6,446 nt of DNA, from the NCBI GenBank assembly GCA_001803565.1, contig MHDQ01000184.1, positions 1 through 6,446 on the forward strand, given 5' to 3'. Positions 276 to 4,844 of this stretch are shown here, piece by piece (the first letter of the stretch is position 1; the number at the start of each line of letters is the position of its first letter). Position numbers and translations under genes: made by a program. Origin of the DNA: Nitrospinae bacterium RIFCSPLOWO2_12_FULL_45_22 (GTDB lineage Bacteria > 2-12-FULL-45-22). The notes beneath the pieces are model-generated. The model was not told the DNA's origin, made no database searches, and saw only the letters and a program-made list of their open reading frames with translations.

Positions 276-489
276 TGAACCGATGGGCGAACTGAGAGTC
301 ATTAAGGATTTTCTTCCTCCACCGGATCAGTTGGTATTGAAAGAAGAAAACGTTAAGGTAACGATCTCTTTGAAAAAATCGAGTGTTGAATTTTTTAAGA
401 AAGAGGCCAAAAAACATCATACTTCATACCAAAAAATGATTAGACAGGTTATCGATTGGTACACTTCACATTATCAAAAGAGTGCCTAA
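250..489 (+). CDS. brnA: BrnA family antitoxin, ribbon-helix-helix DNA-binding protein
   Basis: The 79-residue product is a CopG/MetJ-type ribbon-helix-helix antitoxin that should bind BrnT and repress the shared promoter. The N-terminal half (about residues 1-34) carries the basic and proline-rich segment MRSKIKYTDEP and FLPPPDQ, which fits the toxin-binding part of BrnA. The C-terminal half is the DNA-binding module: a beta strand at 35-41 (VKVTISL), a helix at about 43-56 and a second helix at about 59-73 (SYQKMIRQVIDWY). The start at 250 has a strong ribosome binding site and overlaps brnT by 26 bp, so translation is probably coupled. The stop codon at 487-489 lies inside the R'' box (GCCTAAC) of the following attC-like site, as happens in compact integron cassettes. 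No separate promoter was seen; it should lie before brnT, outside the window. Confidence 0.85.
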   Translation: MRSKIKYTDEPMGELRVIKDFLPPPDQLVLKEENVKVTISLKKSSVEFFKKEAKKHHTSYQKMIRQVIDWYTSHYQKSA

Positions 490-543
490 CAAAGCATTCC
501 AACGGATGGCATGGGACGCCACCGCTAATTTTGCATGTTAGTG
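484..543 (+). repeat. attC-like integron recombination site (60 bp)
   Basis: The element starts with GCCTAAC (484-490), which fits the R'' consensus RYYYAAC, and ends with GTTAGTG (537-543), an R' box that keeps the essential GTT but departs from GTTRRRY in its last two bases. The core folds as CGG, a bulged A at 506, TGGC (503-510), a 7-base loop, then GCCACCG (518-524); a bulged base in the stem is typical of attC. Its length equals that of the classical 59-base element, and from memory its layout (AAC plus spacer, a CATTC block, stem, a TAATT block, GTTAG) matches aadA-type attC sites position by position. It lies directly after brnA, as expected for a cassette end. The imperfect R' box keeps confidence moderate. 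Confidence 0.62.
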
Positions 544-572
544 GCTAAGAAATCGTAAATGAGAATAGAGAG

Positions 573-713
573 GTGAAGAAAATTCAAAAGAAAAGATTGT
601 ATTTAGACGTTTGCACCTTGTGCCGTCCCTTTGATGACCAGAACATGATGCGTATACGCCTTGAAACAGATGCATTCTATTTGATTCTTCGGAATATACA
701 AAATAAAACCTAG
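573..713 (+). pseudogene. PIN-domain toxin, N-terminal fragment
   Basis: A 46-codon frame starts at GTG 573, right after AGAGAG, and ends at TAG 711. It reads LYLDVCTLCRPFDDQ followed by MRIRLETDAFYLIL. This is the N-terminal beta strand with the first conserved acidic residue (Asp12) of a PIN-domain ribonuclease, plus the RIRLET segment seen in one PIN subfamily (recalled from family knowledge). Full PIN toxins run about 130-160 residues and need three or four acidic residues; only the first part is present, so it should be inactive. After the stop, a shifted frame (716-763) reads VMNPIDFC, which could be a decayed continuation, and its TGA overlaps the ATG of the next gene. It could instead be a short expressed peptide, but a decayed toxin is more likely. 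Confidence 0.6.
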
Positions 714-759
714 TATCAGTAATGAATCCAATAGATTTCTGCATTAGGGAGGATTTGAG

Positions 760-963
760 ATGAAGCAAGGTCAATTTATTAGCGAAGATAGACTGTTTAA
801 AAAAGCCATTGACATTCTGATGGAAAAATTGGGTCCAGTAGAGACAAATCGGTTTCTGTCCTTACCCTCGAAAGAAAGGATGGAATCGGTAAAACGACAT
901 CGAAAATGGCAGTCTAAGCTTGATAAAGACACTTTTTTCAATGAAGTTTTCGGAAATCAGTAG
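760..963 (+). CDS. Small hypothetical protein, possible antitoxin partner of the PIN fragment
   Basis: The ATG at 760 has a strong ribosome binding site (AGGGAGGA at 746-753, six bases upstream), so this 67-residue protein is probably translated. It is highly charged and appears all-helical: helix about 9-24, a turn at GPVE (25-28), a helix-break motif RFLSLPSKER (31-40), then a basic helix ESVKRHRKWQSKLDKD (42-57) and a hydrophobic end FFNEVFG. There is no signal peptide, membrane segment or known catalytic motif. Its size, its position next to a PIN fragment, and its placement between two attC-like sites suggest an antitoxin-type protein. The SVKRHRKWQ..LDKD..F pattern feels familiar from small proteins paired with PIN toxins, but this is recall, not a search. 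The function is otherwise unknown. Confidence 0.7.
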   Translation: MKQGQFISEDRLFKKAIDILMEKLGPVETNRFLSLPSKERMESVKRHRKWQSKLDKDTFFNEVFGNQ

Positions 964-973
964 GGGCATAATG

Positions 974-1093
974 GCCTAACAACCGTTATCGGCGATGATA
1001 TTATGTGAAATATCGTCTCGAGGCAATACAAATCCTCTGACCCGAATGGTAAATTTTTTTTGAGCCTTGCGAAGGATAAAAGGGAAGTTAGGC
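974..1093 (+). repeat. attC-like integron recombination site (120 bp)
   Basis: The ends are GCCTAAC (974-980) and GTTAGGC (1087-1093). They are exact inverted copies that match the R'' and R' consensus at every position; with flanking bases the inverted match is 8 bp. TTATC (986-990) can pair with GATAA (1075-1079), leaving spacers of 5 and 7 bases next to the R boxes, as in the unpaired central spacer of attC. The interior contains a 9-bp hairpin, GATGATATT (994-1002) with AATATCGTC (1009-1017), containing one G-T pair. The length lies within the 57-141 bp range known for attC. It begins 11 bases after the stop of the 67-residue gene. A T8 run (1054-1061) lies in the loop region. Confidence 0.6.
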
Positions 1094-1126: not shown

Positions 1127-2041
1127 TTAGGCCTTGGGGGTAGCGCTGGCTGCTCTCTGGGCCACAAACCCTTTAAGGCCCCGGTCTCTCCTCTCTTTAT
1201 ACAAGCTGATTTCATCGGGCCGGAAGCGGATATACTGCAGCATCAGATGCGCGCCATAATGGGCCCTCATGGCAGTTCCCCAGCCATTGATGTCCAACAT
1301 ACCACTAAACCATTCCTTAGCCAGGGTAAAGACCTCCGCAGGGAGGAGGCTAAGCATCTCAGCCCAGCGATTCACTTCCTCATCCAGCTTTTCTTTAGGC
1401 ACTGCCAGGTTTACCGTACCCAATTGCTCAGCCTCTTTGCCCGAAATCTCTGGCAGCATCCGGCCGCAATAAGCCTTATTAGAGCCAATGGGATAGATGG
1501 GATAATTGTTTATCCCATTAACGAAGCGACCAAAACCCCGGGCGCCAAACTGGGCATCCTCGGCTGCGATAGTAATGTCACACATGGCGGCTACAATCTC
1601 GCCCGCACCGATGCAATAGCCATGCACCTGGGCAATAGTTGGTTTAGGGTAGTTAAAGATGTCTTCATGCTTGTTGCAGCGCCGGCGCTCGAAGCCATAA
1701 TAGTCCACCACCGTGGGATTTAAACTGGGGCTTACCGGTGGGGATTCCTCTTCTTTGGGTGAGCTAAGGTCATGCCCAGCAGAAAAATTTATCCCGGCCC
1801 CCCTTATAACCACCACCTTAACCTCAGGGTCATCATTAGCCTGGTGGAGCCCAGCCAGCATATCGCCAAACATACCATCATTATAGGCATTACGTTTTTC
1901 CGGGCGATTCAGGGTAATATAGGCTATCTTGCCTTTTTTCTCATAAAGGGCATCTTTATACTGCCTGCCCTGATACTCCATATGTTCCCATTGGCAGAAT
2001 TGGTACTGGGTCTTAAAATCCCAACCAAACCCGGTAGGCAT
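1127..2041 (-). CDS. Enoyl-CoA hydratase/isomerase (crotonase) family protein, atypical active site
   Basis: This 304-residue protein is the last gene of the crotonase operon. It has an N-terminal extension of about 28 residues before the usual first strand, then LNRPEKRNAYND (44-55), the first oxyanion-hole segment INFSAGHDL (84-92) and the second segment HGYCIGAGEIVAAMCD (140-155). An insert at about 93-130 contains a proline-rich stretch and YYGFERRRCNKH. Aligned by eye to rat mitochondrial hydratase, the Glu144 position is Ile149 (with Glu148 adjacent) and the Glu164 position is Gly169, so neither catalytic Glu is kept. CoA-thioester binding is likely, but the reaction is unknown; simple hydration is doubtful. 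The ATG at 2041 follows AAGGAGGG at good spacing. That site overlaps the stop codon of the preceding gene 12 bases upstream, implying coupled translation. No terminator was found after it. Confidence 0.85.
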   Translation of the reverse strand: MPTGFGWDFKTQYQFCQWEHMEYQGRQYKDALYEKKGKIAYITLNRPEKRNAYNDGMFGDMLAGLHQANDDPEVKVVVIRGAGINFSAGHDLSSPKEEESPPVSPSLNPTVVDYYGFERRRCNKHEDIFNYPKPTIAQVHGYCIGAGEIVAAMCDITIAAEDAQFGARGFGRFVNGINNYPIYPIGSNKAYCGRMLPEISGKEAEQLGTVNLAVPKEKLDEEVNRWAEMLSLLPAEVFTLAKEWFSGMLDINGWGTAMRAHYGAHLMLQYIRFRPDEISLYKERRDRGLKGFVAQRAASATPKA

Positions 2042-2053
2042 AATTATCCCTCC

Positions 2054-2899
2054 TTAGAAATTTAGTTTCTTGTATGGCACATCCCTCTGCTTCAGGGCCT
2101 GCTCTAGTCCCTTTTGCTCTCTTACTTTAAAGAAATCAAAATCATCCGGGCCGGGCTGGCGGCGCTGCATAGCAACCGCCATACTGTCGGTAAAGCGCCA
2201 GGCCCCACCTAATCCCCTGGACTCTATAGCGGCATTGAGGGTGTCTTTGGTTATTGCCAGGGCATCACTATGTACCAGGCTTATACCCTCAGCCAGGTTC
2301 TTGACTTCTGATTCTAGCTTTGCTAGTGGGACAACCTGATTTATCAGACCCCACTCCTCTGCCTCCCGGGCCGTGAGGTAGCGACCGGAAAAGAATATTT
2401 CTTTAGCACGTTTGATACCTAGTAACCAGAGGAGAAGGGGCATCTGGGGCAGAATGCCGGAGCGTAGTGCAGGGTCACCGAACAAGGCATCTTCTGAAGC
2501 AATAGTGATATCACAAGCTAAAGCCAGGTAAAACCCCAGGCCAGTACAATACCCATGCACCTGCGCAATAGTTGGCTTGGCAATATTAAATATATATTCC
2601 AGGCGCCGGGTCTGTCGTCTCGCATTCGTTAAAAGGGTTTTGTAAGGTAAGGCAGTGCCAGGTGGTGGCAGAAGCACCTCAGCGGTCCCTTGGGCGCTCA
2701 AGTCCTGGCCAACACTGAATGCCTTCCCTGCGCCCCTTACTACCACTACCTTGATGTCCAGGTCTGGTTCAATAGCAGCAAAGGTCTTATCCAACTCTGC
2801 TAACATAGCATCATTTATGGCATTGAGCTGATCAGGTCGGTTCAGTGTTACCCAACCTATGTTATTGGCCTTTTCATAAAGTATATGTTGAAACTCCAT
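2054..2899 (-). CDS. Enoyl-CoA hydratase/isomerase (crotonase) family protein lacking both catalytic Glu
   Basis: The 281-residue product has a full crotonase fold: LNRPDQLNAIND (19-30), oxyanion segment KAFSVGQDL (59-67), a variable loop with PPPGTALPY (78-86), the second oxyanion segment HGYCTGLGFYLALACD (115-130), and FGDPALRSG (140-148). The residue matching rat Glu144 is Tyr124 and that matching Glu164 is Ala144, so classical enoyl-CoA hydration is unlikely. Isomerase, hydrolase or lyase chemistry on an acyl-CoA, or a structural role with a paralogue, remain possible. The C-terminal end (FFKVREQKGLEQALKQRDVPY) closely resembles that of the upstream paralogue at 3027-3911, indicating gene duplication. 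The start at 2899 has AAGGAGG five bases upstream. The gene is separated from its upstream neighbour by 127 nt of repeats, and from its downstream neighbour by 12 nt. Confidence 0.86.
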   Translation of the reverse strand: MEFQHILYEKANNIGWVTLNRPDQLNAINDAMLAELDKTFAAIEPDLDIKVVVVRGAGKAFSVGQDLSAQGTAEVLLPPPGTALPYKTLLTNARRQTRRLEYIFNIAKPTIAQVHGYCTGLGFYLALACDITIASEDALFGDPALRSGILPQMPLLLWLLGIKRAKEIFFSGRYLTAREAEEWGLINQVVPLAKLESEVKNLAEGISLVHSDALAITKDTLNAAIESRGLGGAWRFTDSMAVAMQRRQPGPDDFDFFKVREQKGLEQALKQRDVPYKKLNF

Positions 2900-2918
2900 C
2901 TCCGCCTCCTTGTTTAGT

Positions 2919-3028
2919 TAGGTCATCAGTCACTGGTCATTGGGTCATTTGGTTACTGGGTTATTAGGTTATTGACTCATGGGAGTGACCGATACCTAAT
3001 CACGTAATGACCTAATAACCTAATGACT
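2919..3028. repeat. Tandem octamers forming a long imperfect inverted repeat between operon genes
   Basis: Five octamers of consensus KGGTYATT run head to tail at 2934-2973 (TGGTCATT, GGGTCATT, TGGTTACT, GGGTTATT, AGGTTATT), with a looser copy before them at 2920-2927. Inverted copies (AATGACCT, AATAACCT) follow at 3006-3021. Together, 2951-2973 and 3006-3028 form two 23-base arms matching at 18 positions; all mismatches are transitions, and the core 15 bases match at 14. The loop is 32 bases. The right arm ends within the stop codon of the 3027-3911 gene. In the operon mRNA this would be a strong stem between two genes. It is not a CRISPR: there are no spacers. It resembles small dispersed palindromic intergenic elements. 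Confidence 0.7.
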
Positions 3029-3911
3029 ATCTTTTGGGCATAGGGAAATGTTTTAGGAAGGGAAGGTCCCTCTGCCGGATAGCCTCTTTCATGCCTTTCT
3101 CTTCCCTGACCCGGTGGAAATCAAATCCTCCGCGATCAATATAGCTGCGGCCGGGGCGCTGGGCAGCGCTCAAGGCATGATAATTTGTGGCCAGGCGCCA
3201 GCCCGCAGCCAATCCTGCCATGTCAAAGCTAGCCCGGTCAAAGGCAAACCAGCCTACCTGCATATCAAACCCACCGATAGTGCCATACTTAGCTAAAGTA
3301 TCGGCATTGATAGCTACCTCTTCCTCCAGTTGTGCTGCTGGCAGGGACTTCATTACCAGCCCCAATCTTTCTGCCTCCCGGCCATCTATATATTTGCCGG
3401 TAAGGAGTAGTTCTTTGGCCTTCTTAAGCCCTATGCGCCATACCCATAATGGGTTGGTAGGGGATAGGCCTATCCGGATGGATGGGTCACCAAAGATACT
3501 ATTCTCAGCAGCTATAACGGTACGGCAGCACATGGCCAGGTCACAGCCCATACCCAGGCAATAGCCTTCTACCTGCGCAATGGTCCAGCGAGGGAAATCA
3601 AAGATAGCCTGCCAGCGCAAATAGCTCTTCATAGCCGCTTCATATAGGTCACTCAGGAAGGGCTTAGTATTGGGGTCGGGTGGCATTACTTCAGCAGTAT
3701 CTATTCCAGTGAGGTCTTGCCCGGCGCTGAAGTTCCCTCCTGCTCCTTTGATGATTACTACCCAGATATTGGAATCTTTTTGTAACTCTGCCAGGCCCGC
3801 TTCGATCTCCCGGAGCATGGTATCGTTTATGGCATTTAATTTCTCTGGCCGATTAAGCACCAGCCTCCCTATCTTACCCTCTTTTTCTAATTTTATGGTC
3901 TGATAAGCCAT
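3027..3911 (-). CDS. Enoyl-CoA hydratase/isomerase (crotonase) family protein, Glu-to-Asp/Ser active site
   Basis: This 294-residue crotonase-fold protein is the second gene of the operon. Segments in order: LNRPEKLNAIND (19-30), first oxyanion segment GNFSAGQDL (59-67), a loop with MPPDPNTKPF (76-85), second oxyanion segment EGYCLGMGCDLAM (115-127), and FGDPSIRIGLSP (140-151). The rat Glu144 position is Asp124 (conservative) and the Glu164 position is Ser144, so one catalytic acid may remain. A C-terminal insert at about 205-255, rich in aromatic residues and alanine, is longer than in the downstream paralogue and may shape the acyl pocket. The ending FHRVREEKGMKEAIRQRDLPF matches that paralogue's. 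The ATG at 3911 has AAGGAGA at good spacing. The gap to the first gene is 26 nt. CoA-thioester binding is likely; the substrate is unknown. Confidence 0.87.
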   Translation of the reverse strand: MAYQTIKLEKEGKIGRLVLNRPEKLNAINDTMLREIEAGLAELQKDSNIWVVIIKGAGGNFSAGQDLTGIDTAEVMPPDPNTKPFLSDLYEAAMKSYLRWQAIFDFPRWTIAQVEGYCLGMGCDLAMCCRTVIAAENSIFGDPSIRIGLSPTNPLWVWRIGLKKAKELLLTGKYIDGREAERLGLVMKSLPAAQLEEEVAINADTLAKYGTIGGFDMQVGWFAFDRASFDMAGLAAGWRLATNYHALSAAQRPGRSYIDRGGFDFHRVREEKGMKEAIRQRDLPFLKHFPMPKR

Positions 3912-3937
3912 CTTTAGCTCTCCTTAGTCTGAGTAAA

Positions 3938-4771
3938 CTATTCTTCATATACTCCCGGGAAGCTCTCTTTCCTCCTGAACTTCAGAGGATCAGGCTTTTT
4001 CTTCTCCCAGAAAGATTGCTTATAATATTTTGCCTCCTCACTTCCATAATATTTCCAGATAGCATCATACATCAGCAGTTCCAGCCCTCTTATGTCAGCG
4101 CTAACGGCATTAAAAGCGTATTTGAGGGCCCTGATAGCGCCAGGGCTCTTTGCCAGAATCTCATCACACCACTTATCTACTTCTTCTTCTAACTTGTCAG
4201 GCGGGACCACTGCATTCACCAGTCCCATTTCTAATGCCTCTTTAGCGGTATAGCGCCGACATAGATACCAGATTTCTCTCGCCTTCTTTTCTCCCACTAT
4301 CCTGGTCAAATAAGCGGCGCCATAAGCAGCATCGTAGCTCCCTACCATAGGGCCAGCTTGACCGAACTGGGCGGTCTCTGAGGCTATAGTAAGGTCACAG
4401 AGCTGGTGCAGAACCTGCCCCCCACCTATGGCAAAGCCATTTACTGCGGCAATAACAGGTTTAGGTGTCTCCCTTATAAGGGTATGAACCCGGGGAACAT
4501 TCTTGAGCATATCAGACCTATAGCCTGCCTCTGCTTCCTTGGCGTCTCCTCCGGTACAGAATGCCTTGTTACCTGCACCAGTAAGGACTACTACCCCAAT
4601 CTTATCATCCTCACCAGCATCCATCAGCGCCTCTCCTAGCTCTTTACCAGTATGGGAGGTAAAGGCATTGAAGGCTTGTGGTCTGTTTATGGTTATCCTG
4701 GCTACTCCTGGTCTCTTCTCATAGATAATATCTGTGAAATTAAATCCCGCTACTTTTTCCCACTGTGCCAT
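3938..4771 (-). CDS. MenB/BadI-like crotonase: dihydroxynaphthoyl-CoA synthase or ketocyclohexanecarboxyl-CoA hydrolase type
   Basis: The 277-residue product is the first gene of the operon and belongs to the MenB/BadI branch of the crotonase superfamily, whose members form a ring by Dieckmann-type condensation (MenB) or open one by the reverse reaction (BadI). Signatures: AFCTGGD (70-76) and GFAIGGGQV (112-120) for the oxyanion hole; GPMVGSYDAAYG (140-151), giving catalytic Ser145 and Asp147; AREIWYLCRRY (164-174); and YYGSEE (241-246), whose Tyr242 matches the MenB active-site Tyr. The glycine at 140 resembles bicarbonate-dependent type I MenB. The ending EKKKPDPLKF is typical. No other menaquinone gene is nearby and three crotonase paralogues follow, so a degradative ring-opening role seems more likely than menaquinone synthesis, but sequence alone cannot decide. 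The start is ATG 4771, set by a strong ribosome binding site; a TTG at 4792 would place that site inside the gene. Confidence 0.85.
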   Translation of the reverse strand: MAQWEKVAGFNFTDIIYEKRPGVARITINRPQAFNAFTSHTGKELGEALMDAGEDDKIGVVVLTGAGNKAFCTGGDAKEAEAGYRSDMLKNVPRVHTLIRETPKPVIAAVNGFAIGGGQVLHQLCDLTIASETAQFGQAGPMVGSYDAAYGAAYLTRIVGEKKAREIWYLCRRYTAKEALEMGLVNAVVPPDKLEEEVDKWCDEILAKSPGAIRALKYAFNAVSADIRGLELLMYDAIWKYYGSEEAKYYKQSFWEKKKPDPLKFRRKESFPGVYEE

Positions 4772-4780
4772 TTTATCTAA

Positions 4781-4789
4781 CCCTCCTTT
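4781..4789 (-). promoter_or_regulatory. Ribosome binding site that fixes the MenB/BadI-like gene start
   Basis: On the minus strand AAAGGAGGG lies nine bases before ATG 4771. The longer reading from TTG 4792 adds seven residues encoded by this very site and has no site of its own, so it was rejected. Confidence 0.75.
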
Positions 4790-4844
4790 CAAGCTTCAGC
4801 TCAAAGATTTTATCACCTCTCCTGTAAGATCACTTCTTTAAGCT

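Follow-up and report, generated by a model that had tools for sequence, protein, structure and literature searches.

In integrons, the integrase IntI brings a cassette into attI by recombining its attC site in the form of a folded bottom strand, and older cassettes are shifted to the far end of the array. The closest described systems to the locus reported here are CALINs (clusters of attC sites lacking an integron integrase) and the sedentary chromosomal integrons of Vibrio and Xanthomonas. According to surveys, CALINs are as common as, or commoner than, complete integrons; draft genomes inflate these counts (PMC9024848). Published work gives three ways in which integrase-less arrays arise: cassettes are inserted off target, intI is lost, or the array becomes separated from it (PMC8618304). 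BrnT/A cassettes are documented in CALINs (PMC7923331, PMC7370490), and one archaeal MAG on record carries 107 attC sites over >18 contigs (PMC9668308). Given this abundance, the archaeal MAG and the BrnT/A cassettes, the locus belongs to a known kind.

The window, i.e. the whole stretch of DNA analysed, is contig C184 (6446 bp) of a draft genome of 3.67 Mb in 321 contigs. Based on the features listed below, bases 1–1093 are very probably the last two cassettes of a chromosomal integron array, which ends beside a convergent crotonase operon.

3–275, + strand: BrnT ribonuclease toxin gene, lacking its start codon, which lies beyond the contig end (Pfam BrnT_toxin, E 3.5e-21, 75.7 bits)
250–489, + strand: antitoxin gene of BrnA type, 79 aa when read from the ATG at 250, overlapping the end of brnT (Pfam BrnA_antitoxin, E 8e-4, below cut-off)
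484–543, + strand: attC site 1, with R'' 484–490, L'' 493–505, L' 522–533 and R' 537–543 (model R2, 31.7 bits, full length 1–60)
573–763, + strand: PIN-domain toxin pseudogene, with 46 N-terminal codons (573–710), a stop at 711–713 and 17 C-terminal codons (710–763), from alignment to the PIN gene of contig C99
760–963, + strand: 67-aa partner gene, putative antitoxin, sharing ATGA with the PIN remnant (54% identical to its C99 counterpart, E 2e-28)
974–1093, + strand: degenerate attC site 2, with R'' 974–980 and R' 1087–1093, perfect 7/7 end pairing and unrecognisable inner arms
1127–2041, − strand: host enoyl-CoA hydratase/isomerase gene, convergent (Pfam ECH_1; the orthologue in genome CSMAG_2901 is 61% identical and has no cassettes after it)

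The first 1.1 kb holds brnT, the brnA-like gene, site 1, the PIN toxin remnant, the 67-aa ORF and site 2; beyond it, the contig carries four crotonase genes on the opposite strand and one UDPGP-family gene. Like a CALIN, the window has attC-bounded toxin-antitoxin cassettes on one strand and no integrase on the contig, and it is short and decaying. Different from a CALIN, it has one full and one degenerate attC site, and the contig end may hide an adjoining integrase. A CALIN would have two or more attC sites on one strand, spaced by <4 kb; here, site 1 is model-supported, and site 2 has correct ends but no full-length match. Counted by model-supported sites, of which there is one, the window falls below the two-attC rule of IntegronFinder 2.0 (PMC9024848). 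At the contig level, the locus is best read as the end part of a small cassette array in decay, of CALIN type. No intI, attI or third attC was found on the 6446-bp contig, in agreement with the initial annotation, which had reported no integrase in view; its left side is cut off. The integrase of this array is off the contig or lost, and the integrase side is out of view because the contig stops at brnT.

The attC sites were assessed with covariance models built from attC sites of the same genome, the window being left out. Model R1 comprises 10 sites and model R2 44 sites, all from other contigs. Contig C304 carries an intact integron integrase and six attC sites in tandem. In the R2 structure, 81.8% of the cells are paired across the 44 sites and 23 pairs covary strongly. 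Its covariation score is 0.424, compared to 0.145 for shuffled alignments (0 of 500 shuffles reach 0.424), and it is at most 0.093 when the structure is slid by one to three columns. Known integrons served as outside controls for R2: both attC sites were recovered in the class 1 integron of a Pseudomonas plasmid, at 38.9 and 26.7 bits, and two in a cyanobacterial integron.

Site 1 scores 23.0 bits with R1 and 31.7 bits over its full length with R2, corresponding to R2 E-values of 3.9e-7 in the window plus L091 and 1.5e-4 genome-wide. The R2 scores on the class 1 integron place it inside the score range of accepted attC sites; among the attC sites of its own genome, its score is in the lower part of the range. 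The site possesses the R''/R' boxes, the L''/L' arms, an extrahelical base and a position 3' of a cassette gene, and its bottom strand folds (z −2.2). The layout, R'' GCCTAAC, AA, L'' AGCATTC-C-AACGG, L' CCGCT-AATTTTGC and R' GTTAG, is one of R'', L'', bulge, L' and R' that is common to 44 other sites. The TAA stop of brnA falls within the R'' box, and the cassette junction is at G537/T538. Judged by score, fold and layout, site 1 is a genuine, canonical bottom-strand-folding attC of the host genome's own type. The bulged base noted earlier in its stem corresponds to C500 in L''; this extrahelical base is real, and C499 probably joins the bulge. Compared to an attC site on C281 (CCGCTGATTTTTG), L' of site 1 seems one base short, and a two-base bulge is therefore probable. 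A search of the window at Rfam gathering thresholds gave no match; neither site 1 nor the 67-aa protein was found in a search of plasmids, and a scan of viral contigs for the attC core was also negative.

The initial annotation had placed two attC-like sites on the same strand, each directly 3' of small genes. Their positions behind small ORFs on the + strand, the GCCTAAC starts at 484 and 974, the perfect GTTAGGC at 1087–1093 and the spacing of ∼550 bp (from the G of R' at 537 to the G of R' at 1087) are all visible in the sequence. The reading as attC stands for site 1, whereas site 2 is degenerate and retains the right ends only: in the proposed covariance-model check, 484–543 was matched over the full length, and 974–1093 gave only a 14-bit partial match at 974–991. 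The fold of site 2 is also unremarkable (z −0.8). Site 2 opens with GCCTAACAA, ten bases past the stop codon that ends the 67-aa gene, and closes with the perfect GTTAGGC. One perfect RYYYAAC/GTTRRRY pair occurs in the window, vs 0.02 expected. In 305 kb, counting both strands, there are six copies of the motif GCCTAACAA, four of them model-supported attC starts. On C99, the homologous cassette has an attC start at the corresponding place, and this attC is weak as well (15.6 bits). Because true attC ends are combined with an ordinary fold and no full-length match, site 2 is best described as a degenerate attC. The arms GTTATC/GATAA were considered as its L arms and rejected as too weak to count.

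It is very improbable that both sites are chance inverted repeats, unrelated to integrons, beside ordinary toxin-antitoxin genes. The lack of a full-length model match at site 2 is what such a reading has in its favor; for site 1, it is already refuted by the model score and the layout shared with 44 sites. Moreover, the end pair of site 2 recurs in only 0.05% of shuffles of bases 901–1126 (frequency 0.0005), and a homologue of cassette 2 lies between attC sites on C136/C99. A strict GCCTAAC-N-GTTAGGC pattern was found at one other place only, a long inverted repeat on C202. This repeat (L021, 1879–1951) is near-perfect, lacks an extrahelical base and has a Xer-like recombinase gene at a distance of ∼2 kb; it is not called by the attC models and was not accepted as an attC.

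The small genes before the two sites had been described as toxin-antitoxin-type; the pairs are BrnT-BrnA and a PIN toxin, now broken, with a putative antitoxin. Cassette 1 is a BrnT-BrnA toxin-antitoxin pair. Like the known type II BrnT/BrnA systems, it has a BrnT whose profile match is over the cut-off and a BrnA-like partner overlapping downstream; different from them, the BrnA match is below the cut-off and the brnT start is cut, as the contig begins about five bases from that start, inside the first codons. Another BrnT pair (BrnT by profile) is present in a small array on C95 (L025, 6300–10160), beside an intI remnant; this BrnT cassette ends in an attC core that differs from that of the window by 3 mismatches in 22. 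The same array holds, by eye, restriction-like/DNA-methyltransferase-like and RelE/ParE-like pairs.

Cassette 2 was originally a PIN (VapC-type) toxin gene with a small partner gene. No intact PIN nuclease gene is present in the window copy. Compared to the intact copy on C99, ∼268 bp are missing inside the gene, out of frame; the remnant is 71% identical to residues 6–46 of the 152-aa C99 protein, a PIN-like protein whose own PIN match (E 0.005) is below the Pfam cut-off. Unlike the PIN gene, the 67-aa partner gene in the window is still open; its product has no Pfam or NCBIfam family match. On C99, the partner ORF overlaps the PIN-like gene by GTGA. Contigs C136 and C99 join through an exact 72-bp end overlap, which places the intact PIN/partner copy between the attC at C136:24910–24999 and the weak C99 attC. 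The flanks there are unrelated to the neighbours in the window. This recurrence as a unit is the best evidence for regarding the second unit of the window as a cassette.

On the right, the array gives way to host chromosome at the gene 1127–2041, the crotonase side being chromosomal. The gap between the array end and this convergent gene is 34 bp, and the G+C content is 38–39% in the cassettes vs 50% in the crotonase block. In CSMAG_2901, what comes after the crotonase orthologue is a further crotonase gene and no cassettes. Relatives were checked for an empty site: the crotonase gene is absent from one same-order genome at E 1e-60, and CSMAG_2901 keeps it (61% identity) in another gene order, so there is no exact empty site. 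The crotonase block itself (1127–4792) contains four enoyl-CoA hydratase-family paralogues in tandem, three of which have CSMAG_2901 counterparts in a different order. Taken together, the model match of site 1, the recurrence of cassette 2 between attC sites and the chromosomal nature of the crotonase edge bear out the earlier reading of an integron array tail. The outcomes named beforehand as contrary to it (no model hit at either site, no intI in the genome, a conserved flanking gene order) were not observed.

The host appears to be a bacterium, judging from its peptidoglycan genes, which, as read from the sequence, encode a LysM/L,D-transpeptidase-like protein (C281) and a cell-wall hydrolase (C95). 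Only one of the 60 genomes in the kinship comparison is closer than domain level, and the nearest named protein relative is from a MAG labelled Deltaproteobacteria.

The initial annotation had suggested a search for intI. Throughout the genome, two intI genes, on C243 and C304, score over the curated cut-off (467 and 439 bits vs 265) and have no internal stops; both are apparently intact and are candidates for action in trans. About nine more intI fragments were found, on C115, C136, C317, C7, C17, C248, C287, C95 and C106, with best segments of 44–72% identity to IntI over part of its length. The C304 integrase (L015, 4451–5815) has 454 aa, of which ∼137 form an extension N-terminal to the IntI domain. 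The remnants at C136:20129–20724 and C317:8560–9155 (L017, L019) are 83% identical over 596 bp and share an internal deletion (∼residues 125–268 missing); this suggests that the integrase gene was broken before it was duplicated. The R2 search gave ∼70 attC sites, distributed over 35 contigs. Sixteen of these contigs have more than one site, in each case with all sites on one strand; the other 19 contigs, the window among them, carry a single site. At least three arrays (on C243, C95 and the joined C136/C99) have chromosomal-type genes to their left and right, so not all arrays are pieces of one large array; since many attC sites lie near contig ends, the number of loci is uncertain. The related genomes G001 (same order) and CSMAG_2901 each have intact IntI, intI fragments and a few attC sites. 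One intact IntI gene of G001 (L034, 13173–14231) has no attC beside it by model and resembles an In0 element.

Like the sedentary chromosomal integrons of Vibrio and Xanthomonas, these arrays are chromosomal and hold toxin-antitoxin, restriction-modification and unknown-protein cassettes, with integrase decay as reported in Xanthomonas. Different from them, there is no single large array but a number of small ones at separate loci, and remnants make up most of the intI copies.

There is slightly better than an even chance that an integron head (intI and attI), intact or decayed, lies directly left of the contig end, the missing integrase being an effect of the assembly cut only. The start of the contig inside the first codons of brnT, the other intI remnants, four of which lie beside attC arrays, and the inflation of CALIN counts by draft assemblies (PMC9024848) are consistent with this, but the left end overlapped no other contig in an end-overlap search. 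It is unlikely, though worth weighing, that the locus never had its own integrase and that an IntI from elsewhere in the genome placed the cassettes at a non-attI site. The two intact IntI genes could act in trans, 19 contigs including the window carry a single attC, and off-target insertion is among the published origins of CALINs (PMC8618304). However, the contig end truncates the left side, many of the single-attC contigs end near their attC, so that fragmentation accounts for part of the pattern, and several other arrays, on C136, C95, C115 and C17, adjoin an intI remnant.

For an integron array tail, the cassettes of the window would have been inserted by IntI, through recombination of a folded bottom-strand attC with attI or another site, and older cassettes would have been pushed toward the far end, beside the crotonase gene. 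This far end would now be decaying, with attC 2 degenerate and the PIN toxin gene deleted; decay of both the toxin gene and the attC of the last cassette would fit its place as the oldest. The BrnT-BrnA pair still looks intact and may have a stabilising effect on the array. The attI site and the Pc promoter would sit left of base 1. The integrase may once have been left of the array, where the contig stops, or the cassettes may have been placed in trans.

The locus adds a well-supported cassette array to the integrons presumably outside the well-studied groups; the locus as such will not surprise a specialist. Many small, mostly integrase-dead integrons in a poorly sampled lineage are the mildly notable part. 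Because intact integrases, orphan arrays and integrase remnants decayed to different degrees coexist in it, the genome is a useful test case for the origin of integrase-less arrays. As a rather doubtful proposal, this lineage may have repeatedly founded small integrons at many loci, the integrases decaying locally while one or two active IntI serve all arrays in trans, so that cassettes would move without a single large platform.
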